Shown here piece by piece: positions 43,236 to 52,059 of a stretch of DNA of 64,000 bases. Position numbers and translations under genes: made by a program. This DNA is from Stappia sp. WLB 29 (GTDB lineage Bacteria; Pseudomonadota; Alphaproteobacteria; Rhizobiales; Stappiaceae), in the NCBI RefSeq assembly GCF_023507705.1, contig NZ_JALBGD010000003.1:248001-312000 (forward strand). Direction: 5' to 3'. How positions within the stretch are numbered: position 1 is the stretch's first letter; each line of letters begins with the position of its first letter. The notes beneath the pieces were generated by a model. It did not search any database and was not told where the DNA came from. It saw nothing but the letters and a program-made list of their open reading frames with translations.

Positions 43236-44528
43236 TCAGCGCATCAGGCCCGGCAGCAGCAGCACCAGTGAGGGCACGGCGACGATCAGCGCCAGGCGGA
43301 CGATGTCGGCCAGGATGAACGGCACGATGCCGCGGAAGATCCGTTCCAGCGGGACGTCCGGCATCACCGTCTTCAACACGAAGACGTTGAGGCCGACGGG
43401 CGGGGTGATCAGGCTGATTTCGGTGACCACGACGACGACGATACCGAACCAGACCAGGTCGTAGCCAAGGGCCGCCATCATCGGTGCGAAGATCGGCACG
43501 GTGAGCAGCACCATGGAGAGGCTTTCCAGTACCATGCCGAGGCAGAGATAGACGCCGAGGACAGCGAGCAGGATCGCCCAGGGAGGCAGGTCGGAGGCGG
43601 CTGCCATGCTTGAAAGCGCCGCCGGCAGTCCGGCGATGTTGACGAAGTTGGAGAAGATCAGCGCGCCGATCAGCACCATGAACATCATCGTTGTGGTGGC
43701 GGCCGTATCGCTCAGCGTCTCCAGCAGGGTGGCGAGGGTCAGCCGGCGGCGGGCGAGCGCGATCAGGAACGCGCCGCTGGCGCCGATGCCGGCGGCTTCC
43801 GTTGCGGTGAAGACGCCGGCATAGATGCCGCCGATCACCAGCGCGAAAAGTGCGGTGATGCCGGCAACGCCGGCAAGCGCGCGGAAGCGCTCGCGGTAGG
43901 GCAGGCGCTCGGCCGGGGGCCCGGCTTCGGGGCGCCGCCAGCAGACCAGCCAGACGGCGGCCATGTAGCCGAGAACGCCGAGAATGCCGGGAATGATGCC
44001 GGCGATGAACAGCTTGGCGATGTCCTGCTGGGCGGTGACGCCGTAGAGCACCAGGATCACGGAGGGCGGGATCAGGATGCCGAGCGTGCCGCCGGCGGCG
44101 ATCACCCCGCTCGCCAGCCCGTCGTCGTACTTGTAGCGGCGCATCTGCGGCAGGGCGACCTTGCCCATGGTCGCGGCGGTGGCGAGCGAAGAGCCGCAGA
44201 CCGCGGAGAAGCCGCCGCAGGCAACGGCGGTCGCCATGGCAAGGCCGCCGCGGCGATGGCCGAGCCAGGCGTGGCAGGCGGCGTAGAGCTCGTCGGACAG
44301 CCCCGCCCGGGTGACGAGATTGCCCATCAGCACGAAGAGCGGCACCACCGAGAGCGGGTAGGAGAGGCCGGTGTCGAACGTGGTCTGTCCGACCATCGCC
44401 ATGGCCGGGGCGAAGCCGAGGATCATCGTCAGGCCGAGGCCGCCGACGGCGGCCATGGCGACGGCGATCGGCACGCCTGTGAACATCACGACGACGAGAA
44501 TGACGAGGCCGGGAAGCCAGGTTTCCAT
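43236..44528 (-). CDS. dctM: TRAP transporter large permease (DctM)
   Basis: DctM is the 12-helix sodium-coupled channel subunit of tripartite (TRAP) importers. The 430-residue protein has the usual length and motifs: TGVPIAVAMAAVGGLGLTMILG near the start, PLFVLMGNLVTRAGLSDELYAACHAWLGHRRGGLAMATAVACGGFSAVCGSSLATAATMGK, and IIPGILGVLGYM. The ATG at 44526-44528 precedes the first helix. It is last in the operon, 42 bases after dctQ. The imported compound is presumably the substrate of the upstream catabolic genes. Confidence 0.93.
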   Translation of the reverse strand: METWLPGLVILVVVMFTGVPIAVAMAAVGGLGLTMILGFAPAMAMVGQTTFDTGLSYPLSVVPLFVLMGNLVTRAGLSDELYAACHAWLGHRRGGLAMATAVACGGFSAVCGSSLATAATMGKVALPQMRRYKYDDGLASGVIAAGGTLGILIPPSVILVLYGVTAQQDIAKLFIAGIIPGILGVLGYMAAVWLVCWRRPEAGPPAERLPYRERFRALAGVAGITALFALVIGGIYAGVFTATEAAGIGASGAFLIALARRRLTLATLLETLSDTAATTTMMFMVLIGALIFSNFVNIAGLPAALSSMAAASDLPPWAILLAVLGVYLCLGMVLESLSMVLLTVPIFAPMMAALGYDLVWFGIVVVVVTEISLITPPVGLNVFVLKTVMPDVPLERIFRGIVPFILADIVRLALIVAVPSLVLLLPGLMR

Positions 44529-44570
44529 GGTCTTGCGAAGGTCCCTCGGGAGGTGGACGAGGCGGCCCGC

Positions 44571-45080
44571 TCAGGGCTGCCGGCGCAGGATGAGAACGGC
44601 GGCGACGAGCGCGGAGATCCCGGCCAGCACCGCCATCGCGACGGCGACGGGCCCGAGCGGAATGCCCAGATAGACCGTGGCATCGCCATAGGAGCTGTAG
44701 TCGCGGCCCAGAAGCGCGAGCCGCCAGGCGAACACCGCCAGCACGCTGGCGGTCACCGCGAGCGCTGCCCGGGCAAGGCCCTGTCGGAGACGGCCCGGAA
44801 GCCGGCCGGTGAGGAGGTCGACGGTGACATGCTCCCGCCGTGCCGTGACGATCGGCAGGCCGACGAAGACGACCAGCGCCAGCAGCACCTCGGTCAGCTC
44901 GAAGGCGCCGGGCAGCGGACTGTTGAACACGTAGCGGCCGATGACGTCGACGAAGGTCACCGCCATCATCACCAGCAGCAGCAGCGCGGCGACGAGCTGG
45001 AGGAGGCGCGTCGCCGCGGCGAGCGGCCGGAAGGGGCTTGCACCCCCGCCGGTCGCGCCGTCGCGGGGCTCGCCGGTCAT
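44571..45080 (-). CDS. dctQ: TRAP transporter small permease (DctQ)
   Basis: DctQ is the four-helix membrane subunit that joins DctM. The 169-residue protein has helices near RLLQLVAALLLLVMMAVTFVDVIGRYVF, ELTEVLLALVVFVGLPIVTA, and two more in the second half. The element GRYVFNSPLPGAFELTEVLLALVVF is typical of the family. The ATG at 45078-45080 overlaps the dctP stop by four bases, so the two are translationally coupled. Confidence 0.9.
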   Translation of the reverse strand: MTGEPRDGATGGGASPFRPLAAATRLLQLVAALLLLVMMAVTFVDVIGRYVFNSPLPGAFELTEVLLALVVFVGLPIVTARREHVTVDLLTGRLPGRLRQGLARAALAVTASVLAVFAWRLALLGRDYSSYGDATVYLGIPLGPVAVAMAVLAGISALVAAVLILRRQP

Positions 45081-46090
45081 TTCGCTGCGGCGATCTCGGC
45101 CTTGAGCATGTCGATGGCGGCCTGGCCATCGATGCCGGCGGCGGAGGCCGCATCGAGGAAGCCCTTCTCGACACCGGCGAGTTTCTCGGCGATGGCGGCG
45201 GTCATGGCCTCGTCGGCGGTGGTCTGGGCGACGCCCTTTTCCTCCATCACCTTGACGCCGGCCGCGTCGGCCGCATCCCAGGCCTGGCCAGCCATGCGGG
45301 CCATGGCCTCGCCCGACACGCTGTCGATGGCGGCCTTGTCCTCGTCCGAGAGCTTGTCCCAGGCGCCGCGGTTCATCACCACGAAGAACGAGGTGTTGTA
45401 GAGGCCGCCCGGCACCGAAACGCCGTTGCGGATCACCTCGTCGATGCGGAAGAAGGGCACGGACTCCGGTGGGAACAGGATGCCGTCGGCAACGCCGTTG
45501 GCGAGAATCTCGTAGACCTGCGGCGAAGGCGCCTGCACGCCGACCATGCCGAGCCGCGAGGCGATCTCGGCGACGATGCCGCCGCCGATGCGCATCTTCA
45601 GGCCTGCGAGATCGTCGACCGAGGCGACTTTCTTGGTGGTGGTGTAGATGCCGCCGGGACCATGGGTGAAGACGGTGAGCAGCTTGACGCCCTCGTGCTC
45701 GTCGGCCTTGGAAAGCATCGCCTCCTGCACCTTCCAGTAGGCGACGGACAGCGCCTCGGCGCTGTCGGACAGGAACGGTCCCTCGACCAGCGGCGTCAGC
45801 TTGAAGCGGCCCGGCGTGTAGCCGTGGACGCCGAAGCCGATATCGGCCGCGCCCGAGCGGATCAGGTCGAACTGCGCCGGCGGCTTGCCGATCGGCGCGG
45901 CCATGATCTCGACCGTGACGCGCCCGTCGGTCGCCTTGGCCACCTGCTCGCCCCAGGGGGTCAGGATGTCCTTGACGATGGGATGGGAGGGCGGCAGCCA
46001 GTTGGATACGCGCAAGGTGGTCTCGGCGGAGGCGGCGGTGGCGAGGCCAAGTGCCGCGACCGCGGTCAGCATCCCGATGAATTTCCGCAT
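45077..46090 (-). CDS. dctP: TRAP transporter solute-binding protein (DctP family)
   Basis: This periplasmic protein captures the substrate for the DctQM channel. A clear signal peptide (about 1-22, MRKFIGMLTAVAALGLATAA) is followed by ETTLRVSNWLPPSHPIVKDILTPWGEQV. The 337 residues fit the DctP family. The carboxylate-binding Arg of TRAP binding proteins should lie in LAGLKMRIGGGIVAEIASRLG. The ligand is thus probably an organic acid. The ATG at 46088-46090 starts 31 bases after the acyl-CoA ligase stop, so the transporter is likely part of the same transcript as the catabolic genes. Confidence 0.92.
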   Translation of the reverse strand: MRKFIGMLTAVAALGLATAASAETTLRVSNWLPPSHPIVKDILTPWGEQVAKATDGRVTVEIMAAPIGKPPAQFDLIRSGAADIGFGVHGYTPGRFKLTPLVEGPFLSDSAEALSVAYWKVQEAMLSKADEHEGVKLLTVFTHGPGGIYTTTKKVASVDDLAGLKMRIGGGIVAEIASRLGMVGVQAPSPQVYEILANGVADGILFPPESVPFFRIDEVIRNGVSVPGGLYNTSFFVVMNRGAWDKLSDEDKAAIDSVSGEAMARMAGQAWDAADAAGVKVMEEKGVAQTTADEAMTAAIAEKLAGVEKGFLDAASAAGIDGQAAIDMLKAEIAAAK

Positions 46091-46121
46091 TTCAGTCCCC
46101 TCTGTCTGGTTTTCGTTCCGG

Positions 46122-47660
46122 TCAGGCGCTTTGCTTCTTGCCGGACGCATTGAGCGCATCCTCGGCTATTTTCCTGACCCTTTCCAGCTGGATCTTGCCG
46201 AGCGCATTGCGCGGCAGCTCCTGCGTGAAGACGACGGATTTCGGGTGCTTGTAGCGCGCCAGACGTCCGTCGAACCCCGCCAGCACCGCCTCGGCGGTGA
46301 CCTCCCGGCCGGGTTCCGCCACCACGACCGCCACCGGGCTTTCGCCCCAGCGCGGATCGGAAATGCCGACGACAGCGGCCTCTCTCAAGCCGGCGATTTC
46401 GCCGAGCACCCGCTCCAGTTCGGCCGGATAGATGTTCTCGCCGCCGGAGATGATGACGTTCTTCAAGCGGTCCTTGAACCAGAAGACGCCGGCCTCGTCG
46501 CGAAGGGCGAGGTCGCCGGTGCGGAACCAGCCGTCGCGGAACGTGTCGGCGGTGGCCGTCTCGTTGTTCCAGTAGCCTTGCGTGATGTTGCCGCCCTTCA
46601 ACTCGATCTCGCCGATCTCGCCGGGACGGGCATCGCGCTCGCCGATACGGATGCGCGCCTTCGTGTGCAGGCCGGGCCGGCCGATGGCGCCGAATTCCGG
46701 GACGACGTTCTCGCGGCGCTGGTAGATCGCGACTGGGCCGGTCTCGGTCGCGCCGTAGACCTGCAGGACCGGCACGCCGCGGTCGACGAAGGCCCGCATC
46801 AAGGCATGCGGCACGTCGGAAGAGCCCGTCGCGACAAGGCGCAGGGAGGAAAGGTCCGCCGCCTCCCACTCGGGATGGGCGATCAGCGCGGCGAGCGTTG
46901 CCGGCACCAGCACGGTGAGGTCGGGGCGCTCGTCGCGGATTGCGGCGAGCGTCGTGCCCGGGTGGAAGCGGTCGTGCAGGATCACCGTCGCCCCGGCATA
47001 GAGCGCCGGCGTCGTCTGGATGTTGAGCCCGCCGACATGGAACATCGGCAGCACCGTCAGTACGGTGTCAGCGGCGGTGATCTCCTGCATGTGCAGGGCG
47101 TTCAGTGCGTTGGCCTCGACCGCGGCCTGGGTCAGGACGGCACCTTTCGGCCGGCCGGTCGTGCCGGACGTGTAGACGATGAGCAGGGGATCCTGCGTGC
47201 TGCCGTCGCCCTCGTCATGGCCGAGCGGCGCGTCATCCAGTGTCTGGCGGGCGAGACCGCCCGTTGCCGGATCGGCGATGAGCGTCTCTGGAAGCGGGGC
47301 AAGGGCCGCCATCGCGGCAAGGGTGGCCGCGAAATCGGGCTGGTGCACCAGGAGCCTTGCGCCGCTGTCGGCAAGCGCATGCGCAAGCTCGGGCGGGGCA
47401 AGGCGCCAGTTGAGCGGCACGACGATGGCGCCGAGCCGGGCGGCGGCGAAGGTCAGCAGCAGCTGGTCGGGCGAATTGGTGCCGAGATACGCGATCCGCT
47501 CGCCGCGCTTGATGCCGTGGCGGGCCGCAAGCGCGCCGGCCAGCCGGCCGATGCGGGCGGCGAGGGCGGCGTAGTCGATCCGCTCGTCGCCGAAGACCAG
47601 CGCCGTCTTCTCCGGGGTGAAGCGCGCATGCGCCTCGATCCAGTGGTCGATCGACGTCAC
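46122..47660 (-). CDS. Acyl-CoA ligase (AMP-forming)
   Basis: The 512-residue enzyme belongs to the fatty-acyl/aryl-CoA ligase group of the ANL superfamily. It activates a carboxylic acid with ATP and CoA. Motifs are IVYTSGTTGRPKGAVLTQ, VYGATETGPVAIYQ, GWFRTGDLALRDEAGVFWFKDRLKNVIISGGENIYP, and the catalytic lysine in PRNALGKIQLERVRKIA. The GTG at 47658-47660 overlaps the preceding flavoprotein gene stop by four bases. Its substrate may be the carboxylic acid taken up by the TRAP system or a ring-cleavage product; sequence alone does not tell. Medium-chain or 4-chlorobenzoate-type ligases are alternatives. Confidence 0.9.
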   Translation of the reverse strand: MTSIDHWIEAHARFTPEKTALVFGDERIDYAALAARIGRLAGALAARHGIKRGERIAYLGTNSPDQLLLTFAAARLGAIVVPLNWRLAPPELAHALADSGARLLVHQPDFAATLAAMAALAPLPETLIADPATGGLARQTLDDAPLGHDEGDGSTQDPLLIVYTSGTTGRPKGAVLTQAAVEANALNALHMQEITAADTVLTVLPMFHVGGLNIQTTPALYAGATVILHDRFHPGTTLAAIRDERPDLTVLVPATLAALIAHPEWEAADLSSLRLVATGSSDVPHALMRAFVDRGVPVLQVYGATETGPVAIYQRRENVVPEFGAIGRPGLHTKARIRIGERDARPGEIGEIELKGGNITQGYWNNETATADTFRDGWFRTGDLALRDEAGVFWFKDRLKNVIISGGENIYPAELERVLGEIAGLREAAVVGISDPRWGESPVAVVVAEPGREVTAEAVLAGFDGRLARYKHPKSVVFTQELPRNALGKIQLERVRKIAEDALNASGKKQSA

Positions 47661-48928
47661 TCGTCGGTTTCTCCCGGCAGGTAGAGGCTTTCCCGGCCGA
47701 TCCGGTCGAGGCAGATCTCGGCCGTCCAGGGCAGCATCAGGGCGCCGCAGCGGCTGTCGCGGAACAGGCGCTCCAGCGGCAGGGACTTCAGCATCGACTG
47801 GCCGCCGCAGGTGCGGATGGCGAGTTGGCAGATCTCGTTGGCGTTTTCCATCACCGTGTAGTGGGCGGCCCAGGCGCGCAGCATCTGCTCGCGCGAGGGA
47901 TCGGGACCGGCCTCGGTGATCGCCTGGAACCACAGGGCCTTGGTCTGCTCCAGCATCAGGTGCATCTGGGCGACGCCCATCTGCTTGGTGGGGAACATGC
48001 GCCGCTTGACCGGCGGCAGGCCGGGCCATTCGCCGCGCAGGTATTTCACGGTGAAGTCGAAGGCCGCCTGGGCGATGCCCATGTAGGTCGGCGACAGGGT
48101 CATGAACATGTGCGGCCAGCGGCTGGCGGCCTGGTAGTAGACGCCGCGCGGCATCAATGCCTCGTCCTCGGGAACGAAGACGTCTTTGAACAGCAGGGTG
48201 CGCGAGACGGTGCCACGCATGCCGAGCGGGTCCCAGGGACCGACCACCTCGACGCCCTCGGCCGTTGCCGGTACGGCGATATACATCGTGTCCCGGCGCG
48301 AGGGGCGCTCGCCCTCCTTCATCTCGCCGCAGAGGATACCGTAATAGTCGGCATGGCCGGACAGGGAGGCGAAGATCTTCTTGCCGTTGATGATCCAGCC
48401 GCCGTCGACCTTGCGGGCGGAGGTGGAAAAGGGCGCGGCTCCGGCCGCGGCGGCGCCGCCTTCCGAGAAGGGCTGGGAGTAGATAGCCCCGTCTTCCAGG
48501 ATGCGCCTATAGTGGACGGCACGGCGCTGGCGGTGCAACTCCCGCTCGCCGGCCTCGATTTCCAGATCGTCGGTCAGCGCGCCGGTCCACAGGCAGGAAC
48601 AGACATGCATGTTCCAGGTCAGGGCGGTCGCGCCGCAATAGCGGCCGATCTCGGCCGCCGTCATCATATAGGTGCGGAACGGCGCACCGTGGCCGCCGTC
48701 CTCCTTGGGCACGCAGATGCCGAGCAGACCGGCCTCGTGCATGTCGCGGTAGTTCTGCGTCGGGAACACCGCGTCGCGGTCGATGGCCTCGGCGCGCGGA
48801 GCGAAGCGGAACTTGGCCACCCGGCGGGCGAGGGCGGTCAGTTCCTCCTCCTGCTCGGTCAGGCGGAAGGCTTTGGGATCGAAGATCGGCTTGTCCATGT
48901 CGAGCGTCTCGAGATCGGCGACGGTCAT
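47657..48928 (-). CDS. Acyl-CoA-dehydrogenase-fold flavoprotein lacking the usual catalytic Glu
   Basis: The 423-residue protein has the three-domain acyl-CoA dehydrogenase fold: LGICVPKEDGGHG, YSQPFSEGGAAAAGAAPFSTSARKVDGGWIINGKKIF, DPLGMRGTVSRTLLFKDVFVPEDEAL, and RTCGGQSMLKSLPLERLFRDSR. Where dehydrogenases usually have the catalytic YEGT, this protein has LPWT (399-402), so the Glu is replaced by Pro400. Relatives without the base include flavin-dependent monooxygenases of this fold. A flavin reductase gene is divergently placed at 51 kb. Both facts suggest a two-component monooxygenase rather than a beta-oxidation enzyme. The ATG at 48926-48928 overlaps the hydrolase stop by four bases; ATG 48896-48898 is a less likely start. 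Confidence 0.85.
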   Translation of the reverse strand: MTVADLETLDMDKPIFDPKAFRLTEQEEELTALARRVAKFRFAPRAEAIDRDAVFPTQNYRDMHEAGLLGICVPKEDGGHGAPFRTYMMTAAEIGRYCGATALTWNMHVCSCLWTGALTDDLEIEAGERELHRQRRAVHYRRILEDGAIYSQPFSEGGAAAAGAAPFSTSARKVDGGWIINGKKIFASLSGHADYYGILCGEMKEGERPSRRDTMYIAVPATAEGVEVVGPWDPLGMRGTVSRTLLFKDVFVPEDEALMPRGVYYQAASRWPHMFMTLSPTYMGIAQAAFDFTVKYLRGEWPGLPPVKRRMFPTKQMGVAQMHLMLEQTKALWFQAITEAGPDPSREQMLRAWAAHYTVMENANEICQLAIRTCGGQSMLKSLPLERLFRDSRCGALMLPWTAEICLDRIGRESLYLPGETDE

Positions 48929-49728
48929 CGGCCTGCTCCCTCTTGCGGCGGTGTGGTCTCGGTCTGGTTCAGGAAGTCGCGGAGCGCGGCCTCGAAGGCC
49001 TGCGGGCATTCCAGCGGCGCCAGATGGCCGGTGCCGGGCAGCTCCACATAGCGGGCATCGCGCAGCTTCTCGCCCATCCGGCGCATGGTCGGGGCCGGCG
49101 CATTGCGGTCGACCTCGCCGGCGACAAGCAGCACCGGCACAGCGATGTCGGCCAGCGTGTCGCGGGCATCGAAGGTGGCAAGGCAGCGGATCGCCTCGCG
49201 ATAGGTCGCCTCCGGGACCCGGCTCATGGCGGCGGTGGCCACTGATACGGCAGCCGGGTCCGAGGCCGGTCCGACGAGATCCGGCACGAATTCGCGGGCA
49301 AGCTCGGGGATCGTGCGGCCGGCATCGAGCGGGGCCAGCCGCTCGGCGACGAAGCGCTTCTGGAACTCGCCGTCGCGGCTGCCGAAGGCGGCGGTGGTGG
49401 CCGACAGCACAAGGGTGCGCACGCGGCTCGGATGGCGGGCGACGAAGTCCTGCGCCAGCATGCCGCCGATGGAATGGCCGAGCAGGTCGACCTGGTCGAG
49501 TCCGAGCCGGTCGAGAAAGGCGAGCAGGGCCTCAGACAGGGCAGGGAAGGTCATCGGCGACAAGAGCGGAGTGCCGCCGTAGCCGGGAAGGTTCCAGCCG
49601 ATGGCGTCATGATCGCGGCCGAGCCCCCCGATCTGCGGCGCGAACATCTCCGCACCGGCGCCGATGCCGTGCAGCAGCACGACGGCGCGTTCGCCCCCGG
49701 TTCTGCGGATGTGGTCGGGCCGGCTCAT
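48925..49728 (-). CDS. Alpha/beta hydrolase (NicD-like position)
   Basis: The 267-residue alpha/beta hydrolase has an oxyanion region VVLLHGIGAGAEMF, nucleophile elbow GHSIGG (Ser86), likely acid Asp207 in GEVDRNAP and catalytic His235 in GTGHLAP. In nicotinate degradation an alpha/beta hydrolase (NicD) deformylates N-formylmaleamate right after NicX; other members of the same group hydrolyse enamides or enol-lactones in aromatic pathways. Its gene overlaps the NicX-like gene upstream and the flavoprotein gene downstream by four bases each. Deformylase or amidohydrolase action on the ring-cleavage product is inferred from this position only. Confidence 0.88.
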   Translation of the reverse strand: MSRPDHIRRTGGERAVVLLHGIGAGAEMFAPQIGGLGRDHDAIGWNLPGYGGTPLLSPMTFPALSEALLAFLDRLGLDQVDLLGHSIGGMLAQDFVARHPSRVRTLVLSATTAAFGSRDGEFQKRFVAERLAPLDAGRTIPELAREFVPDLVGPASDPAAVSVATAAMSRVPEATYREAIRCLATFDARDTLADIAVPVLLVAGEVDRNAPAPTMRRMGEKLRDARYVELPGTGHLAPLECPQAFEAALRDFLNQTETTPPQEGAGR

Positions 49729-50771
49729 CGCAGCGCCTCGATCAGCTCACCGTCCACCACCACCGGCTCGCCGTCGAGCGCGATGGTGCAGCCGCGCACC
49801 GGGATGTCGAAATGGCCCTTGGTGAAGCGGCCGGCGAACTCGTTGGCCCCGGTCGAGAAGAGGAAATTTCCCGAATAGGCGCGCACTTCCGTTCCGTTGG
49901 TCTCGCGCTGGTCGTACATGGTCAGCGCCTCGTAGCGCGCCGCGGCATTCATGCCGAAGCCGACATGGGCGACGGCATAGGCCTCCTTGTCGCCCCAGGC
50001 GGCGAGATAGCGGCGGGTCAGCTCGGCATCGGTGCCCTCGCCCTCGATCTCCGTCACATAGTCGTCGACGATGGTCAGGCGCACCGGGCGCTCGAGATAG
50101 CGCTTGAAGGTCAGGTTGATGTCGCCGGCATCCAGCACGAGGGTGCCGTTGACGCTGTGGGCGGCGGGGAAGCTTACGACGAGGCCGGCGGGCCAGTGGG
50201 CGACGGAGCCCGGCCGGTCGCACCAGCCCCACACGCCGACGGTCGAGGCGCCTTTCATGGCGACCTTGAGATCCGTGCCGGCGGCGGAGGTGACTGTCAT
50301 CTCGGTCGCCGCACGAATGCGGGAGACGGCCTCGCGCACCCGGTCCTTGTCGCGCGGCTGCGGCAGCAGGCGCTCGAGCGCGTCAGGATGTTCGTTTGAA
50401 ATCATCAACATGCGGGCGCCACCGGCGATGATGCGCGGCAGCTCCGGCGCATGCAGCAGGCCCTCGACCGTCAGGTCGACGACGAGGCCGCTGGCGGCGA
50501 GCGCGGCAATCGCCGCGTCCTGTCCGGAGAGCGCAGCCGAGGCACCCGTCGAGCGCACCTGCACCGGCGCATCCTGCGGCGGTGTCGGCACGACCACGTG
50601 GAAAGCCTTCGCGCCGAGGCGAAGCAGGGCGAGTTCCGCGATGTGGACGTTGAGGGCGCGCGACTGGGTTTCGGAGAGGATCGCGACACTCTCCCCCGGG
50701 GTCACCTTGCAGAGGGTGAAGACGGCCGCGAAGGCGTCGATCCACTTTCCCTCGATCCTGTCGGCGAGCAT
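49725..50771 (-). CDS. NicX-like 2,5-dihydroxypyridine 5,6-dioxygenase family protein
   Basis: NicX is a mononuclear iron extradiol dioxygenase of an unusual (M29-peptidase-related) fold that opens 2,5-dihydroxypyridine to N-formylmaleamate. This 348-residue protein matches its length. It keeps a His in YAVAHVGFGMN (His269) and the HxD pair in KGHFDIPVRG (His320, Asp322), which correspond well in spacing to the iron ligands reported for NicX (His265, His318, Asp320). Other conserved stretches are SVNGTLVLDAGDINL and SGNFLFSTGANEFAG. The ATG at 50769-50771 was preferred over an upstream ATG because GAGGAGGATCTG lies just before it. It is first in the operon. An aminopeptidase-like alternative is less likely, because the HFD pair fits NicX. 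Confidence 0.85.
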   Translation of the reverse strand: MLADRIEGKWIDAFAAVFTLCKVTPGESVAILSETQSRALNVHIAELALLRLGAKAFHVVVPTPPQDAPVQVRSTGASAALSGQDAAIAALAASGLVVDLTVEGLLHAPELPRIIAGGARMLMISNEHPDALERLLPQPRDKDRVREAVSRIRAATEMTVTSAAGTDLKVAMKGASTVGVWGWCDRPGSVAHWPAGLVVSFPAAHSVNGTLVLDAGDINLTFKRYLERPVRLTIVDDYVTEIEGEGTDAELTRRYLAAWGDKEAYAVAHVGFGMNAAARYEALTMYDQRETNGTEVRAYSGNFLFSTGANEFAGRFTKGHFDIPVRGCTIALDGEPVVVDGELIEALR

Positions 50772-50910
50772 CAGATCCTCCTCCCGATCCGCTCCGGCTA
50801 ATCGCTTCGCGCCGACGTCCGGCACGGCCCGATCCGTGCCGTCCGACGTTTTGTTGCGTCGGGCGGTCAATTTTCGCAGCAAGCGAAAAGAACTTGGAGG
50901 AGCGTAGCAA

Positions 50911-50928
50911 TTTCGTTATTGTATGAAA
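50911..50928. promoter_or_regulatory. Candidate MarR operator between the nicX-like and flavin reductase genes
   Basis: TTTCGTTATTGTATGAAA has inverted arms TTTCGT/ATGAAA with one mismatch. It lies in the only AT-rich part of the 234-bp divergent gap. On the minus strand it contains TACAAT, a good -10 match pointing toward the nicX-like operon. A repressor bound here would block that promoter. MarR binding is inferred from the adjacent regulator gene. Confidence 0.45.
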
Positions 50929-51005
50929 AGGAATATTTTTAGGCATGAACTTGTTGCCGGCGCGGCTCGCCGGCATTCCGCAAGCCGAAGGCACGAGGAC
51001 AGGCC

Positions 51006-51509
51006 ATGATGAGCGATCACCGCAGCTTCCGCAGCGCCCTCGGGCGGTTCGTCACCGGCGTCACCATCGTCACCACGCTGGACGAGGCCGGCCGGCCGGT
51101 CGGATTGACGGCCAATTCCTTCAACTCGGTCTCGCTCGATCCGCCGATGGTGCTGTGGAGCCTTGCCCGAAAATCGCAGAATCTCGCCGTTTTCGAGCGA
51201 TCCCGGCACTATGCGGTCAACATTCTTGCCTCCGATCAGCGGGCGCTGTCCGACCGGTTCGCGCGGCCGGTGGAGGACCGTTTCGCCGGAGTTTCCTGGC
51301 AGCCGGGGCAGTGCGGCGTGCCGGTGCTGGCGGGGGTAACCGCCGTGTTCGAGTGCCTCAACGAGACCCGGGTGGAAGGGGGCGACCACCTGGTTTTCCT
51401 CGGGCGGGTCGAGGCGTTCGACCATGCGGACCGCGAGCCGCTGCTCTATCATTCGGGGCGCTACGCAACCCCGAGCTATGCCGGCCCGTCGGCCGCCCTG
51501 CCCGAATGA
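51006..51509 (+). CDS. Flavin reductase (HpaC-like)
   Basis: The 167-residue protein is an NAD(P)H:flavin oxidoreductase domain of the HpaC/NtaB family, the small component of two-component flavin monooxygenases. Typical stretches are RFVTGVTIVTTLDEAGRPVGLTANSFNSVSLDPPMVLWSLARKSQNL, YAVNILASDQ, and GGDHLVFLGRVEAFDHADREPLLYHSGRY. Two adjacent ATGs (51006, 51009) follow AGGACAGGCC. It is divergent from the nicX-like operon and precedes the MarR gene by ten bases. The most plausible partner is the acyl-CoA-dehydrogenase-fold protein at 47.7-48.9 kb. Confidence 0.93.
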   Translation: MMSDHRSFRSALGRFVTGVTIVTTLDEAGRPVGLTANSFNSVSLDPPMVLWSLARKSQNLAVFERSRHYAVNILASDQRALSDRFARPVEDRFAGVSWQPGQCGVPVLAGVTAVFECLNETRVEGGDHLVFLGRVEAFDHADREPLLYHSGRYATPSYAGPSAALPE

Positions 51510-51519
51510 GAGGCGTGCA

Positions 51520-52059
51520 ATGACCGATCTTGCGGCACCTGCCCGCCCGTCCCCCGGCAGCCCGAGCGAAGGCGCTTCCGGCGCCGCAGCCGGGCGCTTC
51601 GTCGACGGCTATCTGCTCTACCTGCTGGCGCGGGCCTCGAGCGTTGCCAGCGCCGAATTCCACGAGCAGGTGCGGGCCCGCGGCGTGCCGGTGGCGGTGT
51701 GGCGCATCCTCGCCTCGCTGAAGGGGACGGGCGAGGGGCTGACCGTCGGCGAGCTGGCGAAGAGCTGCCTTGCCAACCAGCCGGCGATCTCCAAGACCGT
51801 CGACAAGCTGGTCGCCAAGGGGCTGGTCGAACGGCAGGCGGATGGGCAAGACCGCCGCCGCGTCTGGGTGCGGCTGACGCCGGCGGGCGAGGCGCATGTC
51901 GACGAACTTATCCTCGAGGCGCAGGCGCACCAGGCACGGCTGGTCGAGGCGATCGGCGAGGGGGAAACCGAGACGCTGCGCCGGGCCCTGCTGCGGTTGA
52001 TCGAACGGGCGGGATCTGGCGCTCCTTCCGTGGATTTTGATGAGTTTTCCGACAAATAA
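51520..52059 (+). CDS. MarR-family transcriptional regulator
   Basis: The 179-residue protein has a winged helix: VWRILASLKGTGEGLTVGELAKSCLANQPAISKTVDKLVAKGLVERQADGQDRRRVWVRLTPAG. The DxRR wing (DGQDRRR) and flanking dimer helices are complete. MarR regulators commonly sense aromatic ligands; NicR of Pseudomonas putida is a MarR protein that controls nicotinate genes. The ATG at 51520 is ten bases after the flavin reductase stop, so both are probably one transcript. It likely controls itself and the divergent catabolic operon. A candidate operator lies at 50911-50928. Confidence 0.92.
   Translation: MTDLAAPARPSPGSPSEGASGAAAGRFVDGYLLYLLARASSVASAEFHEQVRARGVPVAVWRILASLKGTGEGLTVGELAKSCLANQPAISKTVDKLVAKGLVERQADGQDRRRVWVRLTPAGEAHVDELILEAQAHQARLVEAIGEGETETLRRALLRLIERAGSGAPSVDFDEFSDK

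Follow-up and report, generated by a model that had tools for sequence, protein, structure and literature searches.

Organization and regulation of the locus

The 64,000-nucleotide stretch of Stappia sp. WLB 29 DNA analyzed here (the window, on contig C23 of the 4.75 Mb genome G000) contains a locus of nine genes, verified at positions 43236-52059, which is very probably a ring-opening catabolic operon in which a flavoprotein with the acyl-CoA dehydrogenase (ACAD) fold plays an oxygenase role. Seven genes lie on the minus strand. The first encodes a putative NicX-like mononuclear Fe(II) ring-cleaving dioxygenase (49725..50771, 348 residues), with its start taken as the ATG at 50771, the TTG at 50882 being merely the longest open-reading-frame reading. 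It is followed by an alpha/beta hydrolase (48925..49728, 267 residues, PF00561 with E 1.1e-25, GHSIG motif at residue 84), the ACAD-fold flavoprotein (47657..48928, 423 residues, assigned by Pfam, alignment and fold, and missing the catalytic YEG glutamate), and an AMP-forming acid-CoA ligase (46122..47660, 512 residues with a GTG start, PF00501 with E 2.3e-79), whose top PDB match is the feruloyl-CoA synthetase 8wev (E 2.1e-114). A tripartite ATP-independent periplasmic (TRAP) importer completes the strand, comprising the solute-binding protein DctP (45077..46090, 337 residues, PF03480; top PDB match 4p56, E 3.2e-92, presumably a mandelate-bound TRAP protein of Bordetella), the small permease DctQ (44571..45080, 169 residues, PF04290 with E 5e-27) and the large permease DctM (43236..44528, 430 residues, PF06808 with E 1.1e-94). 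The first four genes overlap by 4 bp at each of their three junctions, 31 bases separate the ligase gene from dctP, dctP and dctQ overlap by 4 bp, and dctQ is followed by dctM after 42 bases. Genes for a flavin reductase (51006..51509, 167 residues, PF01613 with E 1.2e-43) and a MarR-family regulator (51520..52059, 179 residues, PF12802 with E 1.5e-15) diverge on the plus strand. Eight of the nine genes matched Pfam; the NicX-like protein matched no Pfam or NCBIfam model. Coordinates and spacings agree with a preliminary description of this DNA, which had noted a nine-gene catabolic locus with these overlaps, the 31-base gap and the divergent pair.

In the intergenic region between the divergent genes (50772..51005), alignment of the window with 15 relatives at least 80% identical in the NicX-like protein reveals a common stretch of about 60 bases. 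On the strand of the NicX-like gene, this stretch carries a TATAAT-like box (TACAAT in the window) and then CAATAACGAAATTG or variants. An imperfect inverted repeat, CAATTTCGTTATTG (50908..50921), occurs as one exact copy in the window, counting either strand, and is a candidate MarR operator. The flavin reductase and MarR are fused into one protein of 330-346 residues, encoded beside the NicX-like gene, in six relatives (L176:4937-5929, L092:8898-9902, L139:8878-9873, L100:8859-9860, L101:2955-3995 and L120:8859-9860, where L-numbers denote compared loci and, below, G-numbers genomes). The C1 reductase of p-hydroxyphenylacetate 3-hydroxylase has the same reductase-MarR build. The flavin reductase of the window resembles the reductase half of C1 (NF045919, E 9.7e-62, under the model cut-off), and the reductase and MarR of the window each align with one half of the model for the p-hydroxyphenylacetate hydroxylase reductase, MarR only weakly (E 2e-4); judging from this homology, the MarR part may therefore sense a pathway ligand. 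Acting at the shared intergenic region, MarR would hold back expression as long as neither the substrate nor an intermediate is available. In the flanks of the Tardiphaga loci L100, L101 and L120, which carry the NicX-like gene and the fusion gene, no flavoprotein, hydrolase or ligase was found.

The NicX-like dioxygenase and the ACAD-fold flavoprotein

Searched against the PDB, the NicX-like protein matches NicX of Pseudomonas putida KT2440 (7cn3, E 1.8e-58), and its predicted structure has a template-modeling (TM) score of 0.91 to NicX (36% identity) and 0.64 to the peptidase AmpT. In the available text of the P. putida study (PMC7910607), NicX binds iron by His265, Ser302, His318 and Asp320, Glu177 and His189 hold the substrate, with Glu177 contacting N1 and O1 of 2,5-dihydroxypyridine, the E177A variant retains 2.7% of the activity, and the enzyme is reported for one substrate only. 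The window protein carries the ligands as H269, S306, H320 and D322 and has V180 in the place of Glu177. We aligned 135 distinct sequences, comprising 113 of the window clade (window included), 9 nic-linked sequences (eight with nic genes in the same stretch, the ninth being the P. putida enzyme itself) and 13 sister types set aside. The clade keeps the iron ligands H265 (113/113), S302 (112/113), H318 (113/113) and D320 (113/113), and both H105 and H189 are retained in all 113 sequences. Glu177 is found in none of them, the position being occupied by V in 94, G in 11, I in 7 and N in 1; the nic-linked sequences keep it in 8/9, with Gln in L201, and the sister types have T, G, S, A or Q in 12 of the 13 and E in L199. 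Loss of NicX Glu308, absent by alignment, was not relied on, since a nearby two-residue gap makes the position unsure.

A maximum-likelihood tree of 86 sequences, with long-branch warnings for some branches, L201 among them, separates the window clade from the nic-linked and luciferase-type proteins by a branch with 100/99 support; thus, in the comparison with characterized NicX that the preliminary description had proposed, the protein falls on a separate branch. Its view of the protein as a NicX-type dioxygenase and not a peptidase holds, as fold and iron ligands rule out the peptidase reading. Four plasmid records label a sister-branch member of the NicX-like proteins 'peptidase M29'. Because fold and metal site match NicX and Glu177 is lost, we read the protein, from its sequence and predicted structure, as a NicX-type ring-cleaver with a changed pocket. 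It shares with NicX the fold, the four iron ligands, H105 and H189, but its clade lacks Glu177 and stands apart in the tree, the operon partners are different, and no maleamate genes lie alongside.

Where ACADs have the YEG glutamate, the flavoprotein and its relatives read MLPW, MLPY or MLPL, in 17/17 family rows of an alignment that also includes a further paralogue and, as an internal control, a true ACAD from the anthranilate cluster of L106, which carries the YEG glutamate. At the isovaleryl-type position there is no Glu either, judged by eye only. An ACAD fold without the catalytic Glu, together with a separate flavin reductase, is the combination that defines group D two-component flavin monooxygenases, and sister systems point to the same role. 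L047, L190, L191 and L192 pair the NicX-like dioxygenase with a class-A flavin adenine dinucleotide (FAD) monooxygenase (PF01494) and have no ligase (TRAP and MarR genes are present in L047, and MarR in L192), and L194 and L195 pair it with a luciferase-like monooxygenase. The plasmid loci L140 (Aminobacter pAA02) and L141 (Ensifer p1) retain the NicX-like protein, flavoprotein and hydrolase, but where ligase and importer would be they carry a gene of the glutamine-synthetase family and an APC permease. The class-A and glutamine-synthetase types nest within the window clade in the 86-sequence tree. Since the hydroxylase is swapped around the same dioxygenase, the flavoprotein holds the hydroxylase place, and we infer that it would hydroxylate its substrate on a handle, either CoA or gamma-glutamyl. 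The flavoprotein and flavin reductase are thus likely to form a two-component monooxygenase, as the preliminary description had proposed, a reading that draws on the glutamate missing in 17/17, the divergent reductase gene and the swapped hydroxylase.

Two of these sister loci have further features. The Aminobacter locus L140 also has cupin and FAH genes, and an aromatic amine may be the substrate of this system. In G076, a genome of the same genus that also has the core genes described below, L047 is an additional NicX-type operon; it consists of a NicX-like protein (49% identity), a hydrolase, a YCII-domain protein, the class-A FAD monooxygenase, MarR and TRAP genes.

Conservation of the core and its genomic link to anthranilate degradation

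Twenty-one family loci other than the window encode a NicX-like protein at least 68% identical to that of the window. The seven operon genes and MarR are present in 21/21 and all nine genes, flavin reductase included, in 19/21, in the same order, and this retention indicates that the grouping is more than chance. Some NicX-like gene occurs in 29/87 family genomes and in 14/14 genomes of the genus of the window, and Stappia indica, whose NicX-like protein is 98% identical, is the closest named relative among the matches listed. Scanning the GTDB species genomes yielded at least 562 stretches encoding NicX-like relatives, of which the best 80, 26 of them Bradyrhizobium, were kept and combined with 32 loci from a class sample (8 of these picked as distant relatives) to give 112 compared loci. 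Eighty-nine are core loci, with the flavoprotein gene no more than 7 kb from that of the NicX-like dioxygenase. The core, consisting of dioxygenase, alpha/beta hydrolase, flavoprotein and CoA ligase, is complete in 76 of the 89, across Alphaproteobacteria and with varying transporters. A flavin reductase is near in 38/89, and DctP and DctM are near in 15/89, with an SsuABC-like ATP-binding cassette system replacing TRAP in the Bradyrhizobium core loci; therefore, the core forms the conserved unit, with which different transporters can be combined. The co-conservation that the preliminary description had proposed to search for is borne out by the nine-gene loci in the family and the four-gene core beyond it, and its carboxylate-type importer by TRAP genes in 21/21 of the other family loci.

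Several lineages show variations in the genes around the dioxygenase or flavoprotein. An octopine-dehydrogenase-like protein and a PRK08269-type 3-hydroxyacyl-CoA dehydrogenase accompany the core in several of them (L119:11044-13128, L066, L109). A Dolichospermum plasmid from a metagenome (L142:7935-9182) has a flavoprotein gene 58% identical to that of the window and no annotated dioxygenase in 8 kb on either side. NicX-like proteins at 37-38% identity adjoin a flavin reductase in L048, L049 and L056, and two amidase-like genes come next in L048, 27-30% identical to the amidase of L178. The latter, an amidase-family gene in G211 (L178:7499-8998), lies immediately upstream of the NicX-like gene, and an amide may be the precursor of the imported or activated acid in this genome.

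Core loci were scored for genes of the anthranilate (2-aminobenzoyl-CoA) pathway, namely the NF006101-type monooxygenase/reductase, a benzoate-CoA-type ligase, RidA and a PRK08258-type hydratase. NF006101 is named bifunctional salicylyl-CoA 5-hydroxylase/oxidoreductase at NCBI, and we take it to be the 2-aminobenzoyl-CoA monooxygenase/reductase type. At least one of these genes lies in the flanks of 32/89 core loci, compared with 0/89 for each of the controls PcaH and PaaA. Three arrangements occur: divergent in Bradyrhizobium and L099, upstream on the same strand in L106, and downstream on the same strand in G456 and G173. In Bradyrhizobium, the core adjoins NF006101, a short-chain dehydrogenase/reductase and the PRK08258-type hydratase, with the benzoate-CoA-type ligase and RidA coming next in the Bradyrhizobium-like genome G447; in L099, ligase and RidA diverge from the core. 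Tryptophan 2,3-dioxygenase is near the core in L175 and L130, followed in L130 by a kynureninase-like gene. In the genome of the window, an anthranilate cluster with monooxygenase/reductase, ligase, hydratase and RidA lies on contig C3, its monooxygenase/reductase scoring 1135.8 bits with NF006101 (cut-off 1078), and this key enzyme is encoded in 14/14 genomes of the genus.

The monooxygenase/reductase is present in 22/22 core genomes of the family compared with 50/65 others (p 0.0097), being common there anyway, and in 14/19 strict-core genomes compared with 61/366 others (p 2e-7) in a class sample of 385 genomes. Counting by NicX score alone gives this anthranilate gene in 20/26 genomes (p 5.7e-11); the reduction from 26 to 19 dropped G087, G280 and G373 (class-A type), G130 and G208 (no flavoprotein near), G372 (a short contig, no flavoprotein seen) and G283 (locus left out). 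Among PcaH-positive genomes, the same gene accompanies the core in 12/14, compared with 30/71 of those without the core (p 0.003).

The preliminary description had the ligase acting on the cleavage product. The ligase itself stands, but this position probably does not, as several relatives have a second, benzoate-CoA-ligase-type ligase. Because this second ligase is grouped with the anthranilate genes within the same loci (L106, L099, L211, L212 and L213), the operon's own ligase is unlikely to be the anthranilate ligase and is probably not the last step; the arrangement suggests that it acts on an earlier acid.

Several observations weigh against this functional picture, the link to anthranilate included. 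Within the thresholds used, and with some loci short, the hydrolase was not found near the core in 8/89 loci, the ligase in 6/89, the flavin reductase in 51/89 and MarR in 55/89. Of the 32 loci with such linkage, 26 carry the name Bradyrhizobium and L180 is close to them, leaving few independent cases (L099, L106, L139, L177 and L179). The benzoate-CoA ligase model was matched under its cut-off, tryptophan 2,3-dioxygenase is near in only 2/89 core loci, and core and anthranilate set lie on different contigs in the genome of the window. Co-occurrence in the 385 genomes is unspecific, with PcaH in 14/19 core and 71/366 other genomes and PaaA in 6/19 and 42/366, and 5 of the 19 core genomes are without the monooxygenase/reductase.

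Proposed pathway, alternative explanations and known systems

In nicotinate degradation, NicC turns N-CH=C(COOH) into N-CH=C(OH), NicX splits the bond to give an N-formyl group and a carboxylate (PMC7910607), and NicD removes formate. By analogy, we propose, at about even odds, a pathway that degrades an imported N-heteroaromatic carboxylate, most likely a bicyclic one of the indole or quinoline type, and ends at anthranilate. The TRAP system would import the acid and the ligase would convert it to the CoA thioester, whereupon the ACAD-fold oxygenase, fed by the flavin reductase, would hydroxylate the nitrogen ring. The NicX-like Fe(II) dioxygenase would then open the N-CH=C(OH) bond, yielding an N-formyl (or N-acyl) aminobenzoate, from which the alpha/beta hydrolase, acting as a deformylase-like N-acyl hydrolase, would release anthranilate. 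Anthranilate would be activated to 2-aminobenzoyl-CoA and passed to its monooxygenase/reductase, both encoded elsewhere in the genome of the window. The gene set, its conservation, the iron ligands, the loss of the dehydrogenase Glu and of Glu177, and the anthranilate linkage in some relatives are read from sequence, whereas every reaction, the ligase-first order, the substrate and the repression belong to the model. Funneling of the product to anthranilate, taken by itself, we give an even chance. Indole-3-carboxylate offers the closest parallel to the nicotinate chemistry, since nicotinate-type steps would convert it through indoxyl and N-formylanthranilate to anthranilate, but it is an unlikely choice as the particular substrate. 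Indole-3-acetate as sole substrate was retained as a mere candidate, as the available text of published papers places an iad-type (Rieske) locus in Bradyrhizobium.

Membership in the nicotinate or hydroxypyridine pathway, with the NicX-like enzyme cleaving 2,5-dihydroxypyridine, the hydrolase serving as NicD and maleamate following, is suggested by the homology to NicX with its conserved iron ligands and by the MarR and alpha/beta hydrolase neighbors, as in the Azospirillum nic cluster. The preliminary description had seen a resemblance to part of this pathway, which the tree, the residues, the neighbors and the NicE search contradict. The nic-linked group forms its own clade, the Glu177 position holds V, G, I or N throughout the window clade, and a close NicE is found in 0/26 genomes carrying the subfamily (paralogues at 29-30% in G101 and G373), whereas it is present at 75-77% in 3/4 nic control genomes, with none in G146. 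At E 1e-20, nicC, nicD and nicF have no match in the 89 core and 21 family loci, and the 89 core loci contain one NicE-like gene at 29% (L067) and two nicB-like genes at 30-31% (L083, L084). We therefore reject this membership as highly improbable. Nearly as improbable, though somewhat less so, is a true ACAD in an operon whose role, once the ligase has acted, is beta-oxidation of a side chain. The resemblance to ACADs in Pfam and in fold, the adjacent ligase, and a 3-hydroxyacyl-CoA dehydrogenase-like gene (c4) with the core in Bradyrhizobium, Hwanghaeella and Roseomonas would fit it, and the fold search does not tell oxygenase from dehydrogenase, as two chains, one named flavin-containing monooxygenase (5z8t), top the list by E-value and ACADs follow with equal or higher TM-scores, the indole-bound TdsC being among the matches. 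However, the YEG glutamate is missing in all family rows, no hydratase or thiolase is among the nine genes, a flavin reductase gene diverges from them, and sister systems swap the hydroxylase place.

More serious is the possibility of a monocyclic N-heteroaromatic acid other than nicotinate, such as a pyrrole or hydroxypyridine carboxylate, with proximity to anthranilate genes reflecting an aromatic-catabolic lifestyle; it is doubtful on balance, yet clearly a better prospect than the two readings above. PcaH co-occurs with the core about as strongly as the anthranilate gene, and linkage outside Bradyrhizobium-like genomes comes from only five loci. On the other side, physical linkage is 0/89 for each control gene, the core still tracks the anthranilate gene within PcaH-positive genomes, and two ligases and two ring-attacking systems per locus would fit a bicyclic substrate.

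The proposed bicyclic route resembles known systems in part. The two-component ACAD-fold flavin monooxygenases DszC/TdsC and HsaA share the fold, the missing dehydrogenase Glu and the separate flavin reductase, and the indole oxygenases IifC/IndA are of the same type; here, the flavoprotein is instead usually partnered by a CoA ligase or, on two plasmids, by a protein of the glutamine-synthetase family. The available text on TdaE of tropone biosynthesis (PMC8283759) describes an ACAD-like flavoprotein acting on a CoA ester, a precedent for such an oxygenase on a thioester, but TdaE belongs to a biosynthetic route and is an internal flavoprotein dioxygenase that works without NADPH. In the accessible part of a review (PMC6221969), the iif/ind pathway opens the indole ring with a two-component oxygenase and converts anthranilate to 2-aminobenzoyl-CoA, as in the proposed route, but IifB and IifA follow the oxygenase, and that part names no NicX-like enzyme or upstream CoA ligase. 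The iad/iac auxin pathways are MarR-regulated, as here, and iad leads to anthranilate as its end product and includes the acyl-CoA synthetase IadF, but begins with the Rieske-type IadCDE, and the accessible portions of these reports name no NicX-like enzyme (PMC12633357, PMC9613470, PMC11630574). By Pfam, none of the nine genes of the operon is a Rieske gene. We did not find the gene set described in the open PubMed Central (PMC) literature, coverage that leaves out most subscription journals.

As a tentative generalization, the core could represent a widespread aerobic route in which an indole or quinoline ring is opened with a CoA thioester serving as the handle; a ligase and an ACAD-fold hydroxylase would be followed by a dioxygenase of the NicX family adapted to bicyclic N-rings and by a deacylase leading to anthranilate. 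Derived versions would keep the dioxygenase and swap hydroxylase and handle, using a glutamine-synthetase-like ligase where the substrate is an amine, or else a class-A monooxygenase without a handle. If true, this would assign a ring-opening function to a large unnamed NicX-like family and give plant- and alga-associated bacteria a new way to remove indole-type compounds, and NicX would be one case of a modular ring-cleaver.

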